IMG/VR virus record: IMGVR_UViG_3300047457_000359
Coordinates: 1-57,730 of that record
DNA: 57,730 nucleotides
Strand: one strand, 5' to 3'
DNA from: a virus
The notes under the pieces were generated by a model. It saw nothing but the letters and a program-made list of their open reading frames with translations, was not told the origin of the DNA and searched no databases. The position numbers were made by a program, and so were the translations under genes. Shown here piece by piece: positions 3,476 to 53,394 of the stretch (within the stretch, counting starts at the first letter, position 1; every line of letters starts with the position of its first letter).

Positions 3476-3724
3476 ATGAGTGACGGACCCAAAGACAGGT
3501 TCAAGAAAACCCAGCACAAGAACGCAGAACAGCGTCGTCAAGATCAAGAAGAGCAGAAAGCAATCGCCAGGGCCGACGAGGGCAAGGAGTTCGTCTGCAG
3601 GAACTGCCGTAGGTGGTTGCCCAGGTCGTACTTTGAGTACGAGTTTGACGGAGAAGTCAAGTTGGCGACACGGTGCGACAGTTGTCGTGAGGAGAATCGT
3701 CAGCGGTATCGCAGGCGAGGGTGA
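3476..3724 (+). CDS. Zinc-ribbon-like small protein
   Basis: 82 residues beginning directly after the previous stop. Basic, with a long N-terminal helix. CRNC at about residues 40-43 and CDSC at about 68-71 form a CxxC...CxxC zinc ribbon, followed by an Arg-rich tail (RQRYRRRG). The charge suggests nucleic-acid binding. This type of small zinc-ribbon protein is frequent in phage accessory regions. Confidence 0.55.
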   Translation: MSDGPKDRFKKTQHKNAEQRRQDQEEQKAIARADEGKEFVCRNCRRWLPRSYFEYEFDGEVKLATRCDSCREENRQRYRRRG

Positions 3725-4236
3725 CACCTGTCACTACACCGCAGTATCGGAGGAAAGGTACGGTACGGATCGTGAGAAGTAAGAAAGCAACTGGTTTCGC
3801 CGTGTATGGCACTTTGCGGGAGGGCGAACCGAACGAAGGAAGGTGGCGGGATCTAGGCAACGCCCGCCCAGGACGGTTCCATGTTGAGAGCCACTGTTTG
3901 TTGCGTCCAGTTGGATGGCCGTTTCCGTATGCCGTCCCGACCGCAGAAGATGGGGATCACATAGTTGTTGACTTCGTCCAGCCGTCGTCCAGACGGGCGT
4001 TCGCCAAGATGCTCCAAGCGTTTGATTGGTTGGAGGGCTATCCGACCCACTATGACCGCAGGGTCGTAGCGATCAAGGACACGGAGACAGGCTCTATCGC
4101 AGGCTATGGCTGGATCTACATCGCAGCCAAGCCGTGGGCGTTGGGCGAATGTGAGATCGTGCCACACGGCGACTGGAAGTCGGTGTGGGACAGATGGGAT
4201 TGGCTGATGAACCAAGGAAAGGAAGGTAGCCGATGA
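3721..4236 (+). CDS. Gamma-glutamylcyclotransferase-like (AIG2/GGCT) protein
   Basis: 171 residues, GTG start in a GTGA overlap. The hallmark substrate-loop motif VYGTLREGEPNEGRW is at residues 28-42, and FDWLEGYP carries the glutamate expected as general acid/base. The fold's strand order (FAVYGTL, GDHIVVDFV, RVVAIKD, GYGWIYIA) is apparent. GGCT-like enzymes cleave gamma-glutamyl or related amide-linked adducts, releasing 5-oxoproline. Such genes are known to accompany amidoligase/ATP-grasp peptide-tagging systems, and this phage encodes an amidoligase at 41854. Substrate is unknown. Confidence 0.75.
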   Translation: MTPVTTPQYRRKGTVRIVRSKKATGFAVYGTLREGEPNEGRWRDLGNARPGRFHVESHCLLRPVGWPFPYAVPTAEDGDHIVVDFVQPSSRRAFAKMLQAFDWLEGYPTHYDRRVVAIKDTETGSIAGYGWIYIAAKPWALGECEIVPHGDWKSVWDRWDWLMNQGKEGSR

Positions 4237-39537: not shown

Positions 39538-40362
39538 ATGTCCAATGTTGAAGTTGACTGGCTGGGCGACCAGTTCCAGGTCAAGTTCAAGTACGACCCG
39601 CTAGTAGTAGCAGCCGTCAAGGAACTGCCTGGAAGACGGTGGGATCCAGACGGCAAAGTGTGGTTCGTCAAGGACAGCCCCCAGTTTCGGTCGTTTGTCG
39701 TTAGCCACGATGCAGTTGTCAGCGTTGATGCTGGTGCTGCAATGGCTACAAGCAAGCAATCGTTGGGATCCGTGCGCCAACATGGACCCAGGTTGATACT
39801 GGACAGCAAGTACGACGCCCGATTGGTAGAAGCGATCCGTACCGTTGAAGGACGGAAGTGGGACAAAGACCACAAACGGTGGCAGTTTCCTCTGTCCTCT
39901 GTGCGGTCAGTCAAGGCAATCGTTGATCAGTTTGATCTTGATTGGTTGGTTGATGATTCAGTCCCCGATGCTGATCCCGTCACCGTCCCGATTGTCAAGG
40001 CAAAGGGCGACCAGTTTCTGGTGTACACGACCTATGACAGAGATGTGCTGGATGCGATCAAGGAGATGCCAGGTGCCGAATGGGACAGATGGGAAACGGC
40101 GTTTCGTGTTCCTGTGGAATGTGTTGTTGAGATTGATGAGTTTGTTCATCGGTTTGCAGGTGTATTGGATGAGACAGCGCAGAAGGTTGTTCAGCAAGCG
40201 GGTGAGGTACTGACCATGTTCAAAGCAAGCAGTGCCACTTCCGCCCAGGTGGAGATCAATGGTTTCGGTGGGGATCTCATGCCGTTTCAGGGCGCAGGCG
40301 TTTTGTACGCACTTTCGGCACTTGGGTACCAGTCGGAGGCCGACGCATTGGTGCGTAAATGA
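39538..40362 (+). CDS. HARP-repeat protein, N-terminal part of a split SNF2 helicase
   Basis: 274 residues. Three repeated HARP-like modules: FKYDPLVVAAVKELPGRRW (near residue 15), SKYDARLVEAIRTVEGRKW (near 85) and TYDRDVLDAIKEMPGAEW (near 160), each followed by an aromatic strand. In SMARCAL1-type proteins HARP domains bind forked DNA for annealing helicase activity. The chain ends with LMPFQGAGVLYALSALG, which corresponds to the Q-motif region normally preceding the Walker A helix. The ATPase domain is encoded 117 bp later. Confidence 0.75.
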   Translation: MSNVEVDWLGDQFQVKFKYDPLVVAAVKELPGRRWDPDGKVWFVKDSPQFRSFVVSHDAVVSVDAGAAMATSKQSLGSVRQHGPRLILDSKYDARLVEAIRTVEGRKWDKDHKRWQFPLSSVRSVKAIVDQFDLDWLVDDSVPDADPVTVPIVKAKGDQFLVYTTYDRDVLDAIKEMPGAEWDRWETAFRVPVECVVEIDEFVHRFAGVLDETAQKVVQQAGEVLTMFKASSATSAQVEINGFGGDLMPFQGAGVLYALSALGYQSEADALVRK

Positions 40363-40363
40363 C

Positions 40364-40480
40364 ATGAACACGACCTGCAATCCAAGTACCCCATGTCGCA
40401 GTTGTCAGACGGGCAACAGTCAACGGAGGTTTCGTCCACATGCCGACCACAAGATACGGAGACGCCTATGTCGGGGGTAA
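40364..40480 (+). CDS. 38-residue Cys/His protein inserted between helicase halves
   Basis: ATG 40364 follows the previous stop by one base and its TAA overlaps the helicase ATG (TAATG). Sequence features: CNPSTPCRSCQTG, then RRFRPHADHKIRRRLCRG, so a basic zinc-finger-like peptide with possible C/C/C/H/H/C ligands. Translational coupling on both sides supports it being translated. It sits between the Q-motif and Walker A of a split SNF2 protein. Confidence 0.5.
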   Translation: MNTTCNPSTPCRSCQTGNSQRRFRPHADHKIRRRLCRG

Positions 40481-41790
40481 TGATCGCAGACGAAATGGGA
40501 CTGGGCAAGACCGTCCAGGCGTTAGCCGTGATCAAAGTGATCAACAAGTACCCCGTGTTGGTCGTTTGCACCAGCAGTCTCCGCAAGAACTGGGAACGGG
40601 AGATCAAGAAGTGGTTGCCAAATGTGTCGGTGGAAGTTCTGTATGGTACGACCCCACATGCTGTCAGCAGCCAGGTGCTTGTTGTTGGGTATGATGTGTT
40701 CTATGCCTGGGGTCGGGCATTGCCGACAGTAAATGTGCTGGTGTTTGATGAGTCGCACTTGTTGAAGAACGGCAACGCTCGTCGCACACAGGAAGCGATC
40801 CGATACTCAGACAAGGTCCACAAAGCAGGTGGTTCGGTGCTGTGTTTGACGGGAACGCCAGTGTTGAACCGACCGACCGAGTTGTTGACTCAGTTGAGGA
40901 TCATGAACAGGCTCGGTGAGTTCGGTGGGGTACAGGGGTTCAAGGAGCAGTTTCGGGATCCGAAGAATCTCGTCACCCTGAACAAGCGTTTGCGATCCAC
41001 TTGTTTTGTCCGCAGGAGAAAGTCGGATGTGTTGCAGGAACTGCCCCCCAAACGGTGGGCTGATGTGGTTGTTGACGGAGATCCAACGGTCATGGCTGAG
41101 TACCGCAAAGCCGAGAGAGACATAGTCGGTTTCTTGAAGAAACGCACGGAGGAACTGGCTGCAGCATCGGGCGCAAGCACGGCAGAAGCCAAACGGGCAG
41201 CATGGGAGCAGGCGTTGAGAGCAGAAGCAGCGCAGCACCTTGTGGCGGTGAACACCCTGAAACTGTTGGCAGCCCGTGCCAAGTTGAGCGTTGCGGAGCA
41301 GTGGATCACGGAGTTCGTTGGGACTGGCAGCAAGTTGGTTGTGTTCGGGTGGCACCGAGAGATTGTCGGTGGTATTGCTGAACGATTCGGTCAATCAAGC
41401 AGGGTGCAGGGAGGTATGTCGGACGAAGAAAAGCAATCGGCTGTTGACTCGTTCCAGACGGATGCAGATGTGAAGGTAATCAGTTGTTCGTTGAAGGCCG
41501 CTGGTGTCGGGATCACCCTGACTGCTGCGTCAGATGTGCTGTTCTTGGAGCAGGGATGGACGCCTGCGGATCAAGACCAGGCTGCTGATAGGTGCCACCG
41601 CATCGGTCAGCAAGACAGTGTGACCGCTTGGACTTTCATTTGCCAGGACACGATTGACGAGTACATAGCCGATGTGATCACGGCGAAACGGGCGGTTGTT
41701 GATGCAGCGACTGACGGCGAACGCAACAAGATGGAGCACACGACCAGCGTGTTGGGCGATGTGTTGGTGTGGTTGGCAAACAAGGCGTAG
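40480..41790 (+). CDS. SNF2-family helicase ATPase, C-terminal part of split protein
   Basis: 436 residues from the ATG at 40480, giving MIADEMGLGKT as the first residues, so Walker A is at the extreme N-terminus. Motif II VFDESHLLK, motif III LTGTPVLNRP, motif V/VI with AAGVGITLTAASDVLF and DRCHRIGQQDSV are intact. With the upstream HARP-repeat protein it forms a SMARCAL1-like helicase for remodelling forks or annealing. In-frame starts farther upstream (40393, 40468) exist and would overlap the 38-residue gene. Confidence 0.85.
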   Translation: MIADEMGLGKTVQALAVIKVINKYPVLVVCTSSLRKNWEREIKKWLPNVSVEVLYGTTPHAVSSQVLVVGYDVFYAWGRALPTVNVLVFDESHLLKNGNARRTQEAIRYSDKVHKAGGSVLCLTGTPVLNRPTELLTQLRIMNRLGEFGGVQGFKEQFRDPKNLVTLNKRLRSTCFVRRRKSDVLQELPPKRWADVVVDGDPTVMAEYRKAERDIVGFLKKRTEELAAASGASTAEAKRAAWEQALRAEAAQHLVAVNTLKLLAARAKLSVAEQWITEFVGTGSKLVVFGWHREIVGGIAERFGQSSRVQGGMSDEEKQSAVDSFQTDADVKVISCSLKAAGVGITLTAASDVLFLEQGWTPADQDQAADRCHRIGQQDSVTAWTFICQDTIDEYIADVITAKRAVVDAATDGERNKMEHTTSVLGDVLVWLANKA

Positions 41791-41806
41791 TGTGACCTAC
41801 TTCACA
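41791..41806 (+). promoter_or_regulatory. Crp/GlxR-like operator, copy 4
   Basis: TGTGACCTACTTCACA, identical to copies at 20339 and 56521, begins right after the helicase stop and 48 bp before the amidoligase. The TTGAC -35 element of the other copies is missing here; TTGCCC is at the nearest position, so promoter strength is doubtful. Confidence 0.65.
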
Positions 41807-41853
41807 CTTGCCCCTACTTCCCAGGAGAAGCGTGGTTTGTCACGATTCGTCCG

Positions 41854-42876
41854 ATGCCAACTACAAGAACCACCATCGGATCGGACGGTCGGACTGTCAT
41901 CATCAGTCTCGGCCCCGAAATAGACCAGCAATGCTGGGAGTACCGTCAGGCTGGCTTCACTTGGGGCATGATTGCAGAGATGGTCGGACTCGGCGGAGCA
42001 TCGTCGGCCCGAACAGCAGCGTCACGCCACGGTCGGAGCCTCGGGATCGTGACGGGGTATGTGCCGCCGTCCAGACGGGCTGTCGGAGTGCGGACATACG
42101 GAGTTGAGATTGAGTTTGTCAACTTGACCCGCCTGGATGCTTGCGTAGCCATTGAACAGGCGTTGGGGATCCCCCATGTCCACTTGATGGACTACCACGG
42201 GCGTGATTGCTACCGCTGTCAGCAGCGGGTTCGTGGCTATCGGGAATGGAAGGTTGAGCGAGACGGATCGGTCAGCAACGGCGATTGGGGCGGTGAGGTC
42301 GTGACCCCGATCCTGCAAGGCGACGATGGCTTTGACGCAATACGCAAGGTCATGGCGGGGCTTCGCCAGGCGGGTGCAGAAGTGGATCAGTCCTGCGGTA
42401 TGCATGTTCACCTGAGCGTTGAGCACATGACCAACGGGCAGCGAGCCGAGTTGGTCCAGCAGTGGTATCAGCACCACGACACCTTTGACCGCTTCGTTGC
42501 CAAGTCCCGAACCGTCAGGGGCAACGGTCGTGGCTACGAGTACTGCCGCCGTGAGGATGACCAAGTTGTGGATCAACAGGTTGACCGAATGAAACGCCAC
42601 GGCAACTTCGGGTACACCGACAAGTATCGCAGCCTCAACCTGACGCCGTTTGCCAAGTACGGAACTTTGGAAGTCCGTATGCACCAAGGCACCCTGAACA
42701 GCCAGAAAGCCAGGAACTGGATCAAGTTGTTGATCGGGTTCTTTGACACAGTTGAGAAGGAAGAACTGTCGCAGTTGTCGCCAGGACTTGCTCTGTTGGG
42801 ATCATTGGCGGACGGCGGAAAGATCAGTCAAGAAACAGCGGCGTATCTGATGCGCCGTGCAGAACAGTTGGCATAG
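41854..42876 (+). CDS. Amidoligase (COOH-NH2 ligase, Amidoligase_2-like)
   Basis: 340 residues. An N-terminal HTH-like stretch (residues 25-65: EYRQAGFTWGMIAEMVGLGG) precedes the ligase. Catalytic-domain motifs: RTYGVEIEFVN (near residue 80), WKVERDGSV (near 130), GGEVVTPILQ (near 145), CGMHVHLSVE (near 185) and YGTLEVRMHQGTLN (near 268). This glutamine-synthetase-like superfamily joins amines to carboxyl groups with ATP. The next gene is a class II glutamine amidotransferase, a pairing described for predicted phage peptide-modification systems. An operator copy lies upstream. Confidence 0.85.
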   Translation: MPTTRTTIGSDGRTVIISLGPEIDQQCWEYRQAGFTWGMIAEMVGLGGASSARTAASRHGRSLGIVTGYVPPSRRAVGVRTYGVEIEFVNLTRLDACVAIEQALGIPHVHLMDYHGRDCYRCQQRVRGYREWKVERDGSVSNGDWGGEVVTPILQGDDGFDAIRKVMAGLRQAGAEVDQSCGMHVHLSVEHMTNGQRAELVQQWYQHHDTFDRFVAKSRTVRGNGRGYEYCRREDDQVVDQQVDRMKRHGNFGYTDKYRSLNLTPFAKYGTLEVRMHQGTLNSQKARNWIKLLIGFFDTVEKEELSQLSPGLALLGSLADGGKISQETAAYLMRRAEQLA

Positions 42877-42895
42877 CCAACGGAAAGGAAAGGAA

Positions 42896-43684
42896 ATGTG
42901 CGGAATCGCAGGTTTCAATGTTGCCGACGGAGACTTCGGCAAGATAAACAGCCAGGCGTTGGCACGGGAGTTGATCAAAGCGATTGAGATCCGTGGCACC
43001 GACGCCACTGGCGGTGCATGGACACAGAAGGCAGACAAAGTGACGGAGGTCTGGTACGCAAAGCAGGCGATACGAGCAAGTGCCTGGCAGTCGTACATCA
43101 AGGAGTACATTCCCAAGCGCAGTCGCAATGTGATCCTGCACACCCGATACGCCACGCAGGGCGATCCCAGCGACAACGACAACAACCACCCGATCGTTGT
43201 GCCAGGCATTGTCGGAGTCCACAACGGACACATCAGCAATGACCGTGAGTTGATTCGGGATCTCGGAGTTGAGCGGATCGGCCAGGTGGACTCGGAAGCG
43301 GCGTTCCAGTTGATCAGTCAGCACAGGGACAAGCCCCAGGAGCAACTGGGCGAGATTCGGGGCAGAGCAGCCCTTGCCTGGATGCGCACCGATCGCCCTC
43401 GTGAGTTGCACCTCGCCAGAGTGGAGGGATCACCCCTCGCAATCGGCCAGACCAAGGCGGGGACTGTCGTCTTTGCCTCAACGATGGACCTGTTGAAGAA
43501 GGCTTGCGACAAGGCGGGGATCAAGTTGGACTGGGAGTACCATGTTCCCGAATACCAGTACCTGGTCTTTCGCAACGGGATCATGGATGAGATGGACAGC
43601 GTTGTTCGCAAGCACTGGCCGTCGTACCACCGCACCACGCCGCCGATCTCCAAGGAGAACATGGCTCTGTACCGCCTGTTCTAA
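42896..43684 (+). CDS. Class II glutamine amidotransferase
   Basis: 262 residues from ATG 42896, chosen because it puts the nucleophile at Cys2 (MCGIAGFN) after AAAGGAAAGGAA. Further Ntn-hydrolase features: IRGTDATGGAW (RG-x-D-x-x-G), HTRYATQGDP, NNHPIVV and VGVHNGHISNDREL. It releases ammonia from glutamine. No synthase domain is attached, so it probably feeds or complements the amidoligase immediately upstream. Confidence 0.88.
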   Translation: MCGIAGFNVADGDFGKINSQALARELIKAIEIRGTDATGGAWTQKADKVTEVWYAKQAIRASAWQSYIKEYIPKRSRNVILHTRYATQGDPSDNDNNHPIVVPGIVGVHNGHISNDRELIRDLGVERIGQVDSEAAFQLISQHRDKPQEQLGEIRGRAALAWMRTDRPRELHLARVEGSPLAIGQTKAGTVVFASTMDLLKKACDKAGIKLDWEYHVPEYQYLVFRNGIMDEMDSVVRKHWPSYHRTTPPISKENMALYRLF

Positions 43685-43705: not shown

Positions 43706-43987
43706 ATGAAAGTAACGATCTACTGGCCTGACTACACGATGACCAAAGCCGCCAACGCAACCGCTGCTTTGAAGATCATCGCTGAGAAGCAGTGGGAAGA
43801 ACAAGTTTCGGTTGAGCGAATGAAGGAGTTACTCGCTGGTAGGGCTTGGGGTTGGTGCAACGCCGTTGTGGATCCCAGCCTGCCCGATGAGGAGTTCCTG
43901 TCCGCACTTGGTGACACTGGTATGGTGTTCGTGTGGTTCGGGGAAGAAGATCCGTGGCGAGGCGTCGGTGAAGGAGGCTTGGCGTGA
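43706..43987 (+). CDS. Uncharacterised protein, leaderless
   Basis: 93 residues; ATG 8 nt after TATCGT (43692-43697). Starts KVTIYWPDYTMTKAANATAA and continues as a helix-strand protein with WGWCNAVVD. No family recognised. It overlaps the WhiB gene by 20 nt. Confidence 0.5.
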   Translation: MKVTIYWPDYTMTKAANATAALKIIAEKQWEEQVSVERMKELLAGRAWGWCNAVVDPSLPDEEFLSALGDTGMVFVWFGEEDPWRGVGEGGLA

Positions 43988-44462
43988 GCATGCAGCATGT
44001 AAAGGCATGCCCATTCAGTTGTTCTTTGGAACTGACGATGAAGGTCCACGAGATCGGATTGCCCGAGAGTTGCAGGCAAAAGCCGTATGTAAACGGTGCC
44101 CTGTATGGCAAACCTGTTTAGAAGCGGGATCCGAAGATGATTGCTACGGCGTTTGGGGTGGATTGACTATGGTAGAGCGCAGGCGTCGCAAGATGGAACT
44201 GGAGCACCAGGCGTACATGACAAGAAGATTTGGAGAATGGCCGAAGCGGATCCCGACAGTCGTTGCAGAACCGCAAAGCGAGTGGAGGCAGTTGGATCTG
44301 CGCCCAGGTTGGCGGGGGGATCAAGTTGCGATCAAGGTGAGGGACACCGACACGACCGATACTGGGGTTGAATACGGAGTGTTCGTAGATGGAAAGCCGT
44401 CGTTGATGTCGGGCGAAGAAACCGAGGCTTGGTTGTACTTCGCAAGTTTGACGATTACCTGA
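43968..44462 (+). CDS. whiB: WhiB-like iron-sulphur transcription regulator
   Basis: 164 residues from GTG 43968. Four conserved cysteines at residues 11, 41, 44 and 50 (AACKG...VCKRCPVWQTC) would bind a [4Fe-4S] cluster, and YGVWGGLT near residue 60 is the sigma-contact loop, followed by a basic region ERRRRKMELE. WhiB-like proteins occur in actinobacteria and their phages, where they redirect or repress host transcription (mycobacteriophage TM4 WhiB is the known case). The C-terminal 80 residues, beta-rich and ending near EAWLYFASLTIT, are an extension not usual in the family. Confidence 0.88.
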   Translation: MKEAWREHAACKGMPIQLFFGTDDEGPRDRIARELQAKAVCKRCPVWQTCLEAGSEDDCYGVWGGLTMVERRRRKMELEHQAYMTRRFGEWPKRIPTVVAEPQSEWRQLDLRPGWRGDQVAIKVRDTDTTDTGVEYGVFVDGKPSLMSGEETEAWLYFASLTIT

Positions 44463-44477
44463 AGTACAGTTGATGCA

Positions 44478-45695
44478 GTGAAAGACGACATTCTTGTTCA
44501 GGTGCAGACGGTGGGGATCAACACTGTCAGGGAGCATCCCGCCAATGTGAGGAAGGGGGATGTTGACCTAATCGCAGACAGTCTGGTGAACCACGGTCAA
44601 TACCGCCCGATCGTTGTCCAGCGATCAACGGGCTACATACTCGCTGGCAACCACACATGGAAAGCGGCTCGCAGGCTCGGTTGGAAGCAGATCGGCGTCA
44701 CCTACCTTGATGTTGACAATGAAACCGCAGCCAAGGTGATGTTGGCAGACAACCGCACATCGGACCTGGCGGTGTACAACGATGCACAGTTGTTGGAACT
44801 GTTGCACAGTTTGGAAGATTTGGCTGGCACGGGATTTGACGAGTTGGACCTTGATCGGTTGGAAGGTCTGTTTGATGAAGACGAAACCGAATCGGGATCA
44901 TCAGGTGGAACTGGTGGTGTCGGCAAGACCCAGTATGCCTTTGAGTTTGGACCGCTGCGTTTGGACATGCCAGCCCACATCGCAGACGCCTGGGAACAAA
45001 AGCAGAAGTTGGACAACCCGAAAGGGACACTCGCAGCGATCCGCAATCGCATTGACATGGCGGCACCCCCAAGGGAGATGACGGCACAGCCAGTCATTGA
45101 CGCCGCAGATTTGGCGGAGACGATACCCCTATCCGATCTCACGCTGTATCCGATGAACGCACGGCAGGGAGACATTGGTGCGATCTCGGAGTCGTTGCGA
45201 CTGTTCGGTCAGTATCGCCCGATTGTCGTAAACAGAAGAACGATGCACATTCTGGTCGGGAACCACACCGCTGCTGCCGCAAAGTCGTTGGGGTGGTCAA
45301 AGATTGCCGTCAGTTGGGTTGATGTGCCAGAGGATCAAGAAGCGAAGATCGTGCTGATAGACAACAGAAGCGCAGATGTTGCTATGTATGACGAAGATGG
45401 TCTGGCGACACTGTTGACCTCGTTGGGGAGTCTGATCGGAACGGGGTTTGATGGCGATGATTTGGATCAACTGTTGAGCGATGTCAGGAACGGGTATCGC
45501 AACAAGAAGCCAGCATCGCAAAGCAAGGTGAGGTGCAAGGCGGGATCCTGGGTGTGGAAACTGCCGTCAGCGCAGTTTGTTGACTGGGAAGCAAAGCACG
45601 GGACTGTTGAAAGTCCTGAGGGGATCAAGTTTCTGACCGAAGGGCTTCGTTTGACGGAAGGAACATGGACAGTGGTGGAGGACACCGATGAGTGA
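44478..45695 (+). CDS. Double ParB-like nuclease-domain protein
   Basis: 405 residues, GTG 7 nt after TACAGT (leaderless). Two ParB/Srx modules: residues 8-115 (REHPANVRKGDVDLIADSL, NHGQYRPIVVQ, YILAGNHTWKAAR) and 215-330 (YPMNARQGDIGAISESLRLF, GQYRPIVVNRR, ILVGNHTAAAAKSLGW). The GNHT element replaces the GERR loop of chromosomal ParB. Each module is followed by a DNR-S/D stretch. A C-terminal unit (KAGSWVWKLPSAQFVDWEAK) is separate. Such phage ParB proteins may act as nucleases or NTP-dependent DNA-modification partners. Confidence 0.8.
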   Translation: MKDDILVQVQTVGINTVREHPANVRKGDVDLIADSLVNHGQYRPIVVQRSTGYILAGNHTWKAARRLGWKQIGVTYLDVDNETAAKVMLADNRTSDLAVYNDAQLLELLHSLEDLAGTGFDELDLDRLEGLFDEDETESGSSGGTGGVGKTQYAFEFGPLRLDMPAHIADAWEQKQKLDNPKGTLAAIRNRIDMAAPPREMTAQPVIDAADLAETIPLSDLTLYPMNARQGDIGAISESLRLFGQYRPIVVNRRTMHILVGNHTAAAAKSLGWSKIAVSWVDVPEDQEAKIVLIDNRSADVAMYDEDGLATLLTSLGSLIGTGFDGDDLDQLLSDVRNGYRNKKPASQSKVRCKAGSWVWKLPSAQFVDWEAKHGTVESPEGIKFLTEGLRLTEGTWTVVEDTDE

Positions 45696-46380
45696 AATGC
45701 AAGTGGAAAGCCGCAGGCTTGACGAACTGACGATGGACGACAGAAACCCCCGAAAGGGAAATGTCGCAGCGATCATTGAAAGCCTGAAGGAGTTCGGCCA
45801 GCACAGGCCGATCGTTGTGCAGAAGGGGACGAACAGGATCATCGCTGGAAACCACATGTTCCAGGCGGCGCAGTCGTTGGGCTGGGAGACGATCCAGTGT
45901 GTCATTGTTGACGACGATGACGAGAAAGCGATCCGTCGTGGCATTGCCGACAACGCCACCAGCGACTTGGCTCGTTGGGATGATGACCAGTTGAAGGAAC
46001 TGTTGAACGAAGTCGGAACGGACATCGCAGGTGTGGATGACCAGTTGGTGAAGCGGCTGTTTGCGCAGATTGTCGCAGAGAACGACCCGATCTATCCGCT
46101 GGTTCCAAAGCCAGGCGAGAAGTACGACTATGTCGTTCTGTTTGCCGACAACGAGATTGACCACGGTTTCTTGATGACATTCTTCGGAGAAAAGGTGCTT
46201 GATTGGAAGACGCCAAGTCGCAGGGCGCAGCGATCACGCATCTTGCCAGTGTCGGTGTTGAGGCGGTTGATGCAAGAACACGGCCTGATCCCTGACACCG
46301 AAGCGGATCCACAGGTGGAGGCGGAGGACGCAACACCACCCACCCAGACCCCCAAGCCCAGCAGGGCTAAGAAGAAATAA
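45688..46380 (+). CDS. Single ParB-like domain protein
   Basis: 230 residues, ATG overlapping the previous gene by 8 nt. Residues 8-115 form a third ParB-like module: DDRNPRKGNVAAIIESLKEF, GQHRPIVVQKGTN, IIAGNHMFQAAQSLGW. The C-terminal half contains YDYVVLFADNEIDHGFLMTF and a Lys/Pro-rich tail. It is closely related to the modules of the gene before, pointing to tandem duplication. Confidence 0.78.
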   Translation: MSEMQVESRRLDELTMDDRNPRKGNVAAIIESLKEFGQHRPIVVQKGTNRIIAGNHMFQAAQSLGWETIQCVIVDDDDEKAIRRGIADNATSDLARWDDDQLKELLNEVGTDIAGVDDQLVKRLFAQIVAENDPIYPLVPKPGEKYDYVVLFADNEIDHGFLMTFFGEKVLDWKTPSRRAQRSRILPVSVLRRLMQEHGLIPDTEADPQVEAEDATPPTQTPKPSRAKKK

Positions 46381-46391
46381 GAAGACGCTTT

Positions 46392-47153
46392 ATGGAAGTG
46401 AACATCGTGATCCCGAGTATGGGACGGGCTGGAGCGTTGCAGGCGCACAAGGCTGTGTCGGGCGACAGATTGACGCTGTGCGTCCCAGACGCCGAAGTGG
46501 AGGCGTACCGCAAGGCGCACCCTGACATACAGGTGGTTGGTCACCCCGACAGCGTGGTGGGACTGTCGCAGAAGCGTCAGTGGATCTACGACTATTGGGG
46601 CGATGTGATCATGATTGACGACGACTGTGATGCGATCCTGCACCTGGAACACGGTTTGGGCAACAAGCCCTGCGTGTTGACCCCAGAAGAAGGGGTGGAA
46701 CTGTGCGACCGTCTGGCTGGTGAAGCACGGGACATGAATGTGTACCTGTTCGGCGTTTCGTCCTCGGTGGACATTCGCAACTATGTTGCAGTGATGCCGT
46801 TCCGCACGGTTGGTTGGGTGAACGGTGGTTTCACGGGACTGCTTCGGGGATCCAAGTTGTCCTACCACCCGAAGATCATGTGCTCCGAAGACTTCTGGAT
46901 TTCGGCGTTGAACGCATACCACCACCGCAAGGTGTGGGTTGATACCAGGTACGCATTGCGTGATGCCAACGGTTCGGGAACGATGAAGACTCCTGGTGGA
47001 ATGGCGTTTATCCGCAGCCTGGAGAACGAAAAGCGTGACAACGAAATCCTGGCGCAGCATTTCGGAGACGCAATCAAACCCCGCCCGAAGAAGGCGGCTG
47101 GTAGAGTCAAGGCGATCCACGAGTTTCAGCGTTCGTTGACGATCCCGTGGTAG
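46392..47153 (+). CDS. Glycosyltransferase, TET-associated (TAGT/GREB1-like) type
   Basis: 253 residues. VNIVIPSMGRAGALQAHKAV at the N-terminus, VVGHPDSVVGLSQKRQWIYD, then the metal-binding VIMIDDDCDAI near residue 73 give a GT-A fold. NGGFTGLLRG and KIMCSEDFWI later would hold the sugar-acceptor site. The pattern fits glycosyltransferases that phages use on modified DNA bases (TET/JBP-associated). No TET/JBP dioxygenase is seen in this window, so glycan modification remains possible. Neighbours are ParB-like, methyltransferase and deacetylase genes. Confidence 0.65.
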   Translation: MEVNIVIPSMGRAGALQAHKAVSGDRLTLCVPDAEVEAYRKAHPDIQVVGHPDSVVGLSQKRQWIYDYWGDVIMIDDDCDAILHLEHGLGNKPCVLTPEEGVELCDRLAGEARDMNVYLFGVSSSVDIRNYVAVMPFRTVGWVNGGFTGLLRGSKLSYHPKIMCSEDFWISALNAYHHRKVWVDTRYALRDANGSGTMKTPGGMAFIRSLENEKRDNEILAQHFGDAIKPRPKKAAGRVKAIHEFQRSLTIPW

Positions 47154-47161
47154 GAGGAAAG

Positions 47162-47779
47162 ATGACAAACCTTGATGAGTTCTATGCGGAAGCAATCGGG
47201 AAGGCTGTTGAACCGTGGCAGTTGAATGACTACGGATCGGAGCGATCACAGAAGCGGCGGTTCCGAGTGGCGGCTGATGCCCTGGGGATCCGTTCGGGAG
47301 ACACGGTTGTTGATGTCGGGTGCGGAAGCGGCGAGTTGCGTCGGTATCTCTGGGCCGAAGGCATTGATGTGGAGTACATCGGCTATGACGCAGTTCCCGC
47401 AATGGTGGAACTGGCGCAGCGTTACGGCGAAAAGAATGTGATGTTGCTGGACGCACTGGAGAAGGGGATCACTATGTGCGAGCATGTTGTGTGCCTCGGC
47501 GTTCTCGGTGTTATGGAAGGAACTGAAGAAGAGCGCATGGCGAAGTTCAGCAGGTTGTTCAGCAATCTGTGCGACCACGCTCAGGTTGGCGTTGCCGTGA
47601 CGGTGCAGATGTACCGTGAGGGACTGGACAAGTCGGGTCTGCGTTGGTACATGGAGGAAGACCAGGTAGCGCAAGCCTTGATGATGCTTCGTCGGGATCA
47701 CCCCGACTTCGGATGGCAGTTGCGGATGGACTACCACCCTCACGACGCAATGTTCGTCGGCCTGTTCCGATCTTTCTGA
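47162..47779 (+). CDS. Class I SAM-dependent methyltransferase
   Basis: 205 residues from ATG 47162 (AGGAGGAAAG upstream). VVDVGCGSGELRRYLW (residues 48-63) is motif I, EYIGYDAVPAMVELAQ is motif II, and VVCLGVLGVMEGT is motif IV/post-motif. No DNA target-recognition domain or DPPY/PC motif is present, so a small-molecule, sugar or protein substrate is more likely than DNA. Confidence 0.75.
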   Translation: MTNLDEFYAEAIGKAVEPWQLNDYGSERSQKRRFRVAADALGIRSGDTVVDVGCGSGELRRYLWAEGIDVEYIGYDAVPAMVELAQRYGEKNVMLLDALEKGITMCEHVVCLGVLGVMEGTEEERMAKFSRLFSNLCDHAQVGVAVTVQMYREGLDKSGLRWYMEEDQVAQALMMLRRDHPDFGWQLRMDYHPHDAMFVGLFRSF

Positions 47780-47823: not shown

Positions 47824-48456
47824 ATGGCAAGCAATAACCCGTGGTACAGCCAGCCAACCGTCAGGGGATACTCCAACCCCGAGGTTGCGTCTGCGCTGCA
47901 AAAAGCAATCAGAAGAGGACAAGTTGACAAGGCTGTGTTCTGGGCAATAGAACTGGACAGGTCGGGCTACGCACAGTATGTGTGGAAGCGTCTGCTAGTG
48001 ATCACAAGCGAGGATGTCGGTCCAGCAGAGCGGCACCTGCCCGCAACCATCTGGGCGTTGTACCAGACCTGGCGTGAGATGAACAGTTGGCGGAACGGGA
48101 ACCACCCCGAGCGGTTGCCCTTTGTTCACGCTGTGATCCTGTTGGCTTCGGCACAGAAGTCCAGGATGTGCGATCACGCAGCCTGTGGCGGCTACAACAC
48201 CAACGAAGCCCTGTTTGAGATCCCAGACGAGGCGTATGACCTCCACACCCTCAAAGGTCGCAGACTCGGCAGGGGTTTGGAGCACTGGTATGCGGAAGCA
48301 GCCAAGTTGGAGAACCCAGCCGATCTCGGGTTTGACCCGTTCGTTGAGTGGAACGCCAAGGCAGACGAGTTCAAGGGCGAGCCGTTGGTCCGCAAGGCGG
48401 GACGGACGGTCGGGGCGGTTGACGAAACTCCCCCAGCCGAACAGTTGTTTGACTAG
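47824..48456 (+). CDS. RarA/MgsA C-terminal-like protein
   Basis: 210 residues. Matches the C-terminal oligomerisation domain of RarA/MgsA clamp-loader-like ATPases without the AAA+ part: ASALQKAIRRGQVDKAVFWA, YVWKRLLVITSEDVG, HAVILLASAQKSRMCDHA. Free-standing versions occur in phages and may interact with replisome or clamp-loader proteins. It is leaderless and its stop overlaps the end of the convergent minus-strand gene. Confidence 0.75.
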   Translation: MASNNPWYSQPTVRGYSNPEVASALQKAIRRGQVDKAVFWAIELDRSGYAQYVWKRLLVITSEDVGPAERHLPATIWALYQTWREMNSWRNGNHPERLPFVHAVILLASAQKSRMCDHAACGGYNTNEALFEIPDEAYDLHTLKGRRLGRGLEHWYAEAAKLENPADLGFDPFVEWNAKADEFKGEPLVRKAGRTVGAVDETPPAEQLFD

Positions 48457-49151
48457 GTGAACAAGTCCGCCAGCCCCTGCCGACCCAGGTGAGCGTAGGC
48501 GTCCCACCAAGACAAGTTCGGTTGGAACTGTTTGAAGACCTGTTTGTAAGGAGGACAGGTCCAGTTCTGCGGGATCACTTGGATGTCGGCGTCAGCCCAC
48601 TGTTGGGGATCAAGGTAGTCCAGGCTCGGCGCACCGCAGATGTAGGTGTCGGCATCAGCCTCTTGACACAGTTCTAGCATCCAGTCGCCCTTGGTCGCTT
48701 GGGACTGGAAAGATGTGTCCAAGTAGACCTTGTGGTGGCACCCGATCATGTAGGCAGCCATGATGGTTGAAGTGGTGTTGAGATCCCCCAGCGAGTCGGT
48801 GTTGATGAACTCCTTGACCTCGGCAAGCATGTCCTCAAAGTAGGGTGCTTTGGCGTAGGAGTGAGTCAAGGTAGCCAGGAACTGTTGTCGCCAGTCCCCC
48901 TGGGCGAGAAGCGTGTCTTTGATTGGTTGCCTCTTGTTGGCGACAGGAACTGTTAGCCAGTGTGGACCGTTGGGGGATCCGACCAGGGCGTGTTGTTGTC
49001 CAGTCTTCTTGCCTTCGGTGTACCCAGTTGGCTTGTTCTTCGGAGTAAACTGGGCTGTAGTCAGAATGACGATGTGGTCGGCTTGCCGCATGCGATCCAA
49101 AAGGTGTAGTTGGGCAGCGACTGGTGGTTGAAACGCAGTCAGGATCGCCAC
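48453..49151 (-). CDS. WbqC-like protein
   Basis: 232 residues on the minus strand. AILTAFQPPVAAQLHLLDRM replaces the usual H-Q-P-x-Y-x-P start, then ADHIVILTTAQFTPKN, HWLTVPVANKRQPIKDTLL and DWRQQFLATLTHSYAKAPYF follow family order. WbqC-type proteins belong to sugar/O-antigen pathways and are thought to modify amino sugars. It overlaps the PIG-L gene upstream by 13 nt, so the two form an operon opposing the rest of the phage. Confidence 0.75.
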   Translation of the reverse strand: MAILTAFQPPVAAQLHLLDRMRQADHIVILTTAQFTPKNKPTGYTEGKKTGQQHALVGSPNGPHWLTVPVANKRQPIKDTLLAQGDWRQQFLATLTHSYAKAPYFEDMLAEVKEFINTDSLGDLNTTSTIMAAYMIGCHHKVYLDTSFQSQATKGDWMLELCQEADADTYICGAPSLDYLDPQQWADADIQVIPQNWTCPPYKQVFKQFQPNLSWWDAYAHLGRQGLADLFT

Positions 49152-49789
49152 AGACGCACCTCGTAAGCCTCTGCATACTGTGTGCCTGCTTGTGCGCCAC
49201 GCATGGTAGCCAGGCTGTGTAGGGCATGGTACGAGCGTTCTGATGGGGACGGGCGGTCCTGGGACTGGTGAGCCTTCATGGCGGAAGTCTTGTCGGCCAG
49301 CATGTCGCCCGACAGTTCCACAAACCAGTTGACCCTGGGACTGTCGCCAGTAAGCGACCAGTAGTCGGGGATCTCCTCGTAGCAGGCGATTAGGTCGGGA
49401 CGGTGACGACCAGTGGATCCCGATGGGCGTGTAGCCGCAAGTACGGCGTTGGCGGTAGCCCTGTGTTCTTGGTGGAAGGACATGGGACTGGGCATGACGA
49501 GGGCGGTGGGACGGATCTCGTCCAGGATGTTCTCCATCGGCCTGACTAGATCAACAAGGGGGCGGTCGTCTAGCCAGCGGGTTGGGAACTGGGTGAGGAT
49601 CCTGAGATCCGCCCCACCAAGCATGTCAACTGCGGTTGCGAGTTCCGAAGCCCTGGTGTCGTTCGGACAGGTGACGCACACAACGGTGACTTTGCCCCCC
49701 TGTCTGTTGACCTTTGAGATCAGTCCGCCCGCTCCGATGGTTTCGTCGTCTGGGTGGGGGGCGACGACCATCAGGTTGTTGATTAGCAT
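49139..49789 (-). CDS. PIG-L/LmbE-type deacetylase
   Basis: 216 residues from the minus-strand ATG at 49789, which lies 6 nt after TATGCT on that strand (leaderless); an upstream ATG at 49819 is possible. VVAPHPDDETIGAGG (metal-binding PHPDDE) and SFHQEHRATANAVL (H-x-x-H region) define the zinc-dependent GlcNAc deacetylase fold. Substrates in the family include GlcNAc linked to lipids or small molecules, as in mycothiol synthesis. With WbqC and the glycosyltransferase it suggests amino-sugar modification. Confidence 0.85.
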   Translation of the reverse strand: MLINNLMVVAPHPDDETIGAGGLISKVNRQGGKVTVVCVTCPNDTRASELATAVDMLGGADLRILTQFPTRWLDDRPLVDLVRPMENILDEIRPTALVMPSPMSFHQEHRATANAVLAATRPSGSTGRHRPDLIACYEEIPDYWSLTGDSPRVNWFVELSGDMLADKTSAMKAHQSQDRPSPSERSYHALHSLATMRGAQAGTQYAEAYEVRLWRS

Positions 49790-49861
49790 GATGACAGCAT
49801 ACAACACCGTGAGGTGCATGTTGGTGTGCTAGAACGATCTGTACGCACAACGGAGGTTTAG

Positions 49862-53340: not shown

Positions 53341-53394
53341 TGTGACTTATTTCACATAACCCCCCTGTACCTGGAGAATGTTGGCAGATACGCT
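53341..53394 (+). promoter_or_regulatory. Crp/GlxR-like operator plus weak promoter, copy 5
   Basis: TGTGACTTATTTCACA (53341-53356) has perfect TGTGA...TCACA arms. -10 TACGCT at 53389-53394; at the -35 position only TGTACC is found, so this copy probably needs an activator more than the others. Confidence 0.65.

Follow-up and report, generated by a model that had tools for sequence, protein, structure and literature searches.

A phage amidoligase with an HTH-like N-terminus and an adjacent class II glutamine amidotransferase as candidate subunits of an amide synthetase

Described phage amidoligase cassettes

Phage cassettes that combine an amidoligase with a glutamine amidotransferase (GATase) are a prediction from genomics, for which the primary paper is reportedly Iyer 2009. 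They are annotated in many phages. No report of their reaction and no assay of PF12224 or of a phage amidoligase cassette turned up in the literature found, in line with the first-pass annotation of the DNA studied here, which knew of no biochemical proof. In the phages LUZ24/tf/UFV-P2 and RIO-1/phiEco32 one early-region cluster contains Amidoligase_2, a class II GATase of 486 to 510 residues and a protein of AIG2/GGCT type, together with COOH-NH2_lig (PF14395) and an ATP-grasp enzyme. The amidoligase, GATase and GGCT-like genes of RIO-1-like phages were labeled a "peptidoglycan modification cassette" (PMC5498523). OM43 phages also have the pair, and their authors repeated earlier suggestions of roles in superinfection or secondary metabolites (PMC10580990). 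AIG2-like and amidoligase genes were noted in cluster AL Arthrobacter phages (PMC5513430). CmoY is a phage DNA-carboxylate amide ligase of a recently proven pathway with ParB neighbors, and one cluster of ligases has a glutaminase domain (PMC12783734).

The window, meaning the whole stretch of DNA that was analyzed, comes from IMG/VR, where it is a linear virus record of 57.7 kb. It shares Amidoligase_2 and the class II GATase with the LUZ24-type cassette and differs from it in a GATase of glutaminase size and a ligase that bears an HTH-like region. PF14395 was matched in none of 25 records including the window, in a scan whose positive controls did not score either. No ATP-grasp ligase was named among the window proteins scanned, which were part of the ORFs. 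The window resembles the CmoX/CmoY systems in having a predicted ATP-dependent phage amide ligase and ParB-domain neighbors, and some ligases there have a glutaminase domain. It differs from them in the ligase, which in CmoY is of the asparagine-synthetase type and not of the GS/GCS fold, and in the requirement for CmoA/CmoX.

The nearest cultured counterparts compared were Arthrobacter phages. The Laroyevirus-type phages of cluster AL (Waltz, Laroye, Salgado, Shrooms) encode an amidoligase 31 to 33% identical to that of the window followed by a class II GATase at 38 to 40%, with a SNF2-type helicase 5' of the pair as in the window. Unlike the window they have a GGCT directly 5' of the amidoligase, and the exact Crp-like site was absent from the stretch read. 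In Arthrobacter phage Ottawa the SNF2, amidoligase, GATase, ParB-domain and terminase genes are ordered as in the window, but a GGCT adjoins the pair and a TAGT match was not seen. This GGCT, gp64 (L005, 11204-11671), is annotated as hypothetical; it aligned with the cassette GGCTs and is 38% identical to the one directly 5' of the Waltz amidoligase. Arthrobacter phage Kharcho also has the pair, which was carried by 14 Arthrobacter phage records in total. The pair in the window is not unique and belongs to a widespread phage lineage.

The locus and its two enzymes

The features of the locus are given in Table 1. The coordinates proposed for the pair and for the GGCT in the first-pass annotation were correct. 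Upstream of the pair a HARP-domain protein and a SNF2-family helicase were present as two adjacent ORFs (39538-41790), in place of which Ottawa (L005) and L055 have single longer ORFs. The WhiB family is mostly actinobacterial, and the WhiB gene 3' of the pair suggests an actinobacterial host; the host of this phage is probably an actinobacterium.

Table 1. Positions of the amidoligase-GATase pair, its neighbors and the Crp-like sites in the window
Feature	Position	Strand	Basis or remark
GGCT / gamma-glutamylamine cyclotransferase-like gene (PF06094)	3721..4236	+	38 kb from pair; possible remote partner
Crp/GlxR-like palindrome TGTGACCTACTTCACA	41791..41806	+	exact TGTGA-N6-TCACA; 63 bp 5' of amidoligase ATG
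Amidoligase (PF12224), HTH at ~21-62 and GS/GCS-fold ligase at ~79-340	41854..42876	+	profile, PHROG, model
Stand-alone class II (Ntn) glutamine amidotransferase, Cys2	42896..43684	+	GATase_6, PHROG, motifs
93-aa protein without assigned function	43706..43987	+	counterparts 3' of GATase in L040, L055, L056, L062 and L069
WhiB-family protein, start probably near 43985	43866..44462	+	3' of pair in most close relatives
ParB-N-domain protein, two ParB-like halves	44478..45695	+	3' of pair in many relatives
Second ParB-N-domain protein	45688..46380	+	profile match
TAGT-type glycosyltransferase (PF20691)	46392..47153	+	equivalent position in L040/L062/L069
Crp-like palindrome sites	2327, 20339, 38410, 41791, 53341, 56521	+	38410 with one mismatch

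The identification of the first gene as an amidoligase held. Its 340-aa product matched Amidoligase_2 (PF12224; E 9.5e-32, 111 bits against a cut-off of 22) and the PHROG "amidoligase enzyme" (E 1.4e-42). An AlphaFold model built on a 54-sequence alignment was confident, with a mean pLDDT of 90.2. On structural alignment residues 79-340 of the model matched the carboxylate-amine ligase YbdK (Z 13.2) and its Salmonella homologue 1tt4 (Z 13.7), and the model also matched glutamine synthetases (Z ~13), the plant glutamate-cysteine ligase GCL (Z 12.2) and Dop (Z 11.9). The fold of the model is thus that of the glutamine-synthetase/GCS ligases. No solved PF12224 structure was matched by sequence. 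Seventeen residues were invariant in all 54 aligned homologues, among them E85, E87, D137, E148, H184, H186, R219, N262, R275 and H277. The motifs GVEIE (83-87), CGMHVH (181-186) and EVR (273-275) are the counterparts of the ExE, GMHxH and ExR motifs by which glutamine synthetase binds metal and nucleotide. As far as sequence and model say, the active site looks intact, and the inactive site named beforehand as evidence against the pair was not what was found.

The second gene was likewise what it had been taken for, a stand-alone Cys2 amidotransferase. It lies on the same strand after a gap of about 20 nt, and its ATG at 42896 gives a Met-Cys2 start and a product of 262 aa, within a longer ORF that opens at 42857. 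The product matched GATase_6 (E 5.8e-16) and the PHROG of phage glutamine amidotransferases. All catalytic motifs were present, with MCGI at 1, HTRYAT at 82, HNG at 109 and DSE at 132. A profile of nine relatives matched the GlmS glutaminase domain with E 4e-23, with the Cys, HTR-AT, HNG and D-E positions aligned. The GATase itself scored 4e-19 with the GlmS glutaminase and 3e-5 with EgtC. Across the GATases surveyed MCGI was kept in 71 of 72 and the remaining motifs in 72 of 72, and the GATase active site looks intact by these motifs.

The HTH-like N-terminus noted in the ligase was also confirmed, as three helices at residues ~21-62 (pLDDT ~87-93). When this region was modeled alone, the nearest PDB folds were mostly DNA-binding (DosR, NarL, GerE, TraR, LuxR and Lrp/AsnC types). 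The best matches spanned an rmsd of 1.3 to 1.7 (1je8, 1.7; 1fse, 1.5) with E values of at least 0.6, which are weak because the domain is small. Ligase homologues scored with the Pfam families HTH_23, Sigma70_r4_2 and GcrA (best E 2e-5). In the dereplicated set 34 of the 43 ligases coupled to a GATase had a recognizable HTH-like N-terminus, against one of the 55 others, by a profile seeded with coupled members and so biased towards coupled ligases. The single HTH-bearing ligase counted among the others is L021, the sequence of which stops 126 bases beyond the ligase, so that it may be coupled as well. Without any use of the HTH profile, the median N-terminal length was 86.5 residues in coupled viral ligases, 15 in uncoupled viral ligases and 30 in bacterial ones. 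About one fifth of GATase-coupled ligases had no HTH. The association of HTH and GATase is a correlation by shared descent and reflects few independent events.

Distribution, neighboring genes and the Crp-like sites

Amidoligase loci were surveyed after dereplication at 90%, which left 56 viral or phage loci and 57 loci from bacterial genomes. Of the 56, 43 had a GATase directly 3' in the same orientation (median gap 19 nt), against 1 of the 57; the viral loci were picked by similarity to the window, so these percentages describe its neighborhood and not all of PF12224. The lone bacterial case, L090, is a 5.4-kb MAG contig with a ligase inside the phage clade, and it is therefore possibly viral. 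GATase-coupled amidoligases are essentially one phage clade: in a tree of 98 ligases they fell within one group of 46 (SH-aLRT 97) with three state changes. Searches that started from the GATase gave eight viral loci, each with an amidoligase just 5'. A GATase was present in 39 of 50 amidoligase-bearing viral records. Amidoligase, GATase and GGCT were absent from nine relatives recognized by a tail gene, in which the PF12224 scan had no positive control that scored. A terminase-based search for relatives of the window gave no matches. Fisher tests of the amidoligase-bearing records against the nine relatives gave p = 1e-5 when GATase was counted and p = 0.008 when GGCT was, on records that are related, are in some cases near-copies and are in many cases fragments. 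Co-occurrence lends strong support to a functional link between amidoligase and GATase. Since the two genes co-occur and both active sites look intact, neither of the results that the first-pass annotation had said would speak against it was obtained.

The GGCT had been proposed as a third partner under an operator of the same class as that of the pair. The gene does belong to PF06094 (E 1.9e-12), and GGCTs were found in 24 of the 50 amidoligase-bearing viral records, in 18 of the 27 such records of at least 30 kb, and in none of the nine amidoligase-negative relatives. They adjoin the pair in some lineages only, in several of which they lie directly 5' of the amidoligase and GATase. The cluster in the window has no GGCT of its own; its copy is 38 kb away and only 20 to 23% identical to the cassette GGCTs. 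A GGCT was also missing from L010, L011 and L019, close relatives from records of 32 to 61 kb. Co-occurrence of the GGCT with the pair is partial. The operator at the GGCT was rejected. GTGACACCTGTCAC at 3721 is a loose half-match, and half-matches of this type were seen 25 times against 35 expected. The nearest exact site, at 2327, is 1.4 kb 5' with ORFs between.

Downstream, L040 and L062 have the order ligase, GATase, small ORF, ParB, ParB, TAGT and MgsA as in the window, and L069 keeps it up to its contig end. The window differs from this order by the WhiB and methyltransferase genes. A TAGT was found in 3 of 25 records. The two-half ParB-N-domain protein precedes a third ParB-domain unit. 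The TAGT and the small methyltransferase that follows it (46392-47779) may serve to modify DNA bases. In T-even phages, enzymes of the TAGT type add sugars to modified bases (PMC13390438). The methyltransferase, at 47147, had no near relative among the loci compared and no curated match. WbqC-like and PIG-L deacetylase-like genes lie on the minus strand at 48453-49819, with the bacillithiol enzyme BshB2 as best NCBIfam score; neither had relatives in the cassette loci. The TAGT/methyltransferase/PIG-L/WbqC block was rejected as part of the cassette, as only the TAGT and the MgsA-like gene recur, in one related lineage. No C5 cytosine methyltransferase (PF00145) was found in the window, while 7 of 25 related records passed the cut-off and the controls scored. 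The 5-carboxymethylcytosine pathway (CmoA/X/Y) was rejected on this absence. A defense system was also rejected, as PADLOC gave no match for the ligase, GATase or GGCT.

The Crp-like operator had been described as a feature of the pair. It is real, with five exact TGTGA-N6-TCACA sites in the window against 0.12 expected, a number reached in none of 100 shuffles. TGTGACCTACTTCACA abuts the stop codon of the upstream SNF2-like gene, and several copies start flush with the end of a preceding stop codon or overlap it. The palindrome repeats are followed by TAACCCC. At 2327, 20339, 38410 and 56521 the palindrome is followed by a conserved TTGAC(T/A)-N16-TACG(G/C)T promoter, and at 53341 by the -10 element only. 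Neither the TTGACT nor the TACGGT hexamer was recognizable at the corresponding spacing after the 41791 site, so an activator would probably be needed if this site drives the pair. A phage-encoded Crp factor was rejected, as HTH_Crp_2 had no match in the window while controls scored. A host Crp/GlxR would therefore be the simplest binder, with an unrelated protein of the phage as the alternative, and the repeated element looks, by its sequence, like a phage regulon under a host factor of this type.

The sites did not follow the cassette. Of 35 amidoligase-bearing records searched, four had an exact site anywhere and none had one before the pair. Outside the window, an exact site just 5' of the amidoligase was seen in L014 only, at a distance of 105 bp. 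L179 (G060:12500-20500) and L180 (G061:1500-9500), relatives of 87 to 93 kb by the shared tail gene and without the cassette, had eight and seven exact sites in ~6 kb. In these two records the sites adjoin short inverted repeats (CAGCTTTAAAGCTG, GGCCTTTAAAGGCC). The operator was thus rejected as a part of the cassette. As it is rare with amidoligases and abundant in two cassette-less relatives, it is a regulatory trait of the phage group and belongs to the regulation of the phage itself.

Possible reactions and targets

On the reading that we consider most likely, with a probability of roughly 0.55, the two products are the subunits of an amide synthetase that depends on glutamine and acts on a carboxylate. 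The class II glutaminase would release ammonia from glutamine and leave glutamate. With ATP, the amidoligase of GS/GCS fold would activate a carboxylate to an acyl-phosphate, which would react with the ammonia from the glutaminase to give a primary amide. A small amine may be the acceptor for the ligase instead. The ligase and GATase are predicted to form a complex with ammonia as nitrogen donor, and the HTH may bring the ligase to DNA or to a target bound to it. This reading rests on the intact motifs, the ligase fold, the same-strand adjacency over great divergence and the HTH that tracks the GATase. Against it, an enzyme of GATase fold that is paired with a GCS-fold ligase may do something other than supply ammonia. 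EgtC, the partner of the GCS-fold EgtA, has the GATase fold and is a gamma-glutamyl hydrolase.

The main chemical rival follows from that precedent. In it the ligase would make a gamma-glutamyl or similar amide that the GATase-fold enzyme, the GGCT or both would remove, as in EgtA/EgtC (ergothioneine) and BtrJ/BtrG (butirosin). The ligase fold matches YbdK and GCL, the GATase has its weak EgtC score, and GGCTs both lie directly 5' of the pair in several lineages and are confined to the amidoligase-bearing records in the comparison above. The GATase is however far nearer to GlmS and keeps the GlmS motifs, some close relatives have no GGCT, and the GGCT of the window is remote and divergent. We regard such a cycle as doubtful. 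The cell-wall and DNA-base readings concern substrates and are compatible with either chemistry, so the likelihoods given to these readings do not sum to one. Amidation or extension of host peptidoglycan stem peptides, directed against rival phages or altering lysis, has been proposed in print for related phage cassettes (PMC5498523; PMC10580990). Its chemistry would be akin to amidation by MurT/GatD (PMC3267633). The pair has no visible peptidoglycan-specific domain or membrane anchor, the HTH and the WhiB/ParB neighbors do not point to the wall, and neither COOH-NH2_lig nor an ATP-grasp enzyme, which accompany the pair in the LUZ24-type cassette, was seen in the scans described above, within their limits. 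This target appears unlikely.

DNA hypermodification, in which the pair would amidate a base carboxylate together with the TAGT and ParB-domain proteins and so evade restriction, was judged similarly improbable. It draws on the HTH of the ligase, on a gene order from amidoligase to MgsA that the window shares with the diverged L040/L062, and on CmoY with its ParB neighbors and the ligase cluster with a glutaminase domain (PMC12783734). The window nevertheless lacks PF00145, few of the records have a TAGT, the CmoY fold is different, and the methyltransferase at 47147 has neither a near relative in the loci nor a curated match. With an HTH and ParB neighbors, and sometimes a glycosyltransferase, a nucleic-acid-associated target or a regulatory role fits at least as well as the cell wall. 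The narrower proposal, that the HTH-ligase fusion and its dedicated glutaminase form an amide synthetase that works on DNA of the phage or the host, or on a protein bound to it, next to the ParB-domain proteins and, in some phages, a base glycosyltransferase, is a tentative one with the odds well against it. If true, amidation of DNA or nucleoprotein by an HTH-ligase and a glutaminase would be a previously undescribed route.

GATase coupling is thus essentially a trait of one phage clade, with a single and possibly viral case among the bacterial amidoligases surveyed. It travels with the ligase HTH, which gives a testable reason to examine DNA and nucleoproteins besides peptidoglycan. The cultured Arthrobacter phages that carry the pair are the place to seek its target.
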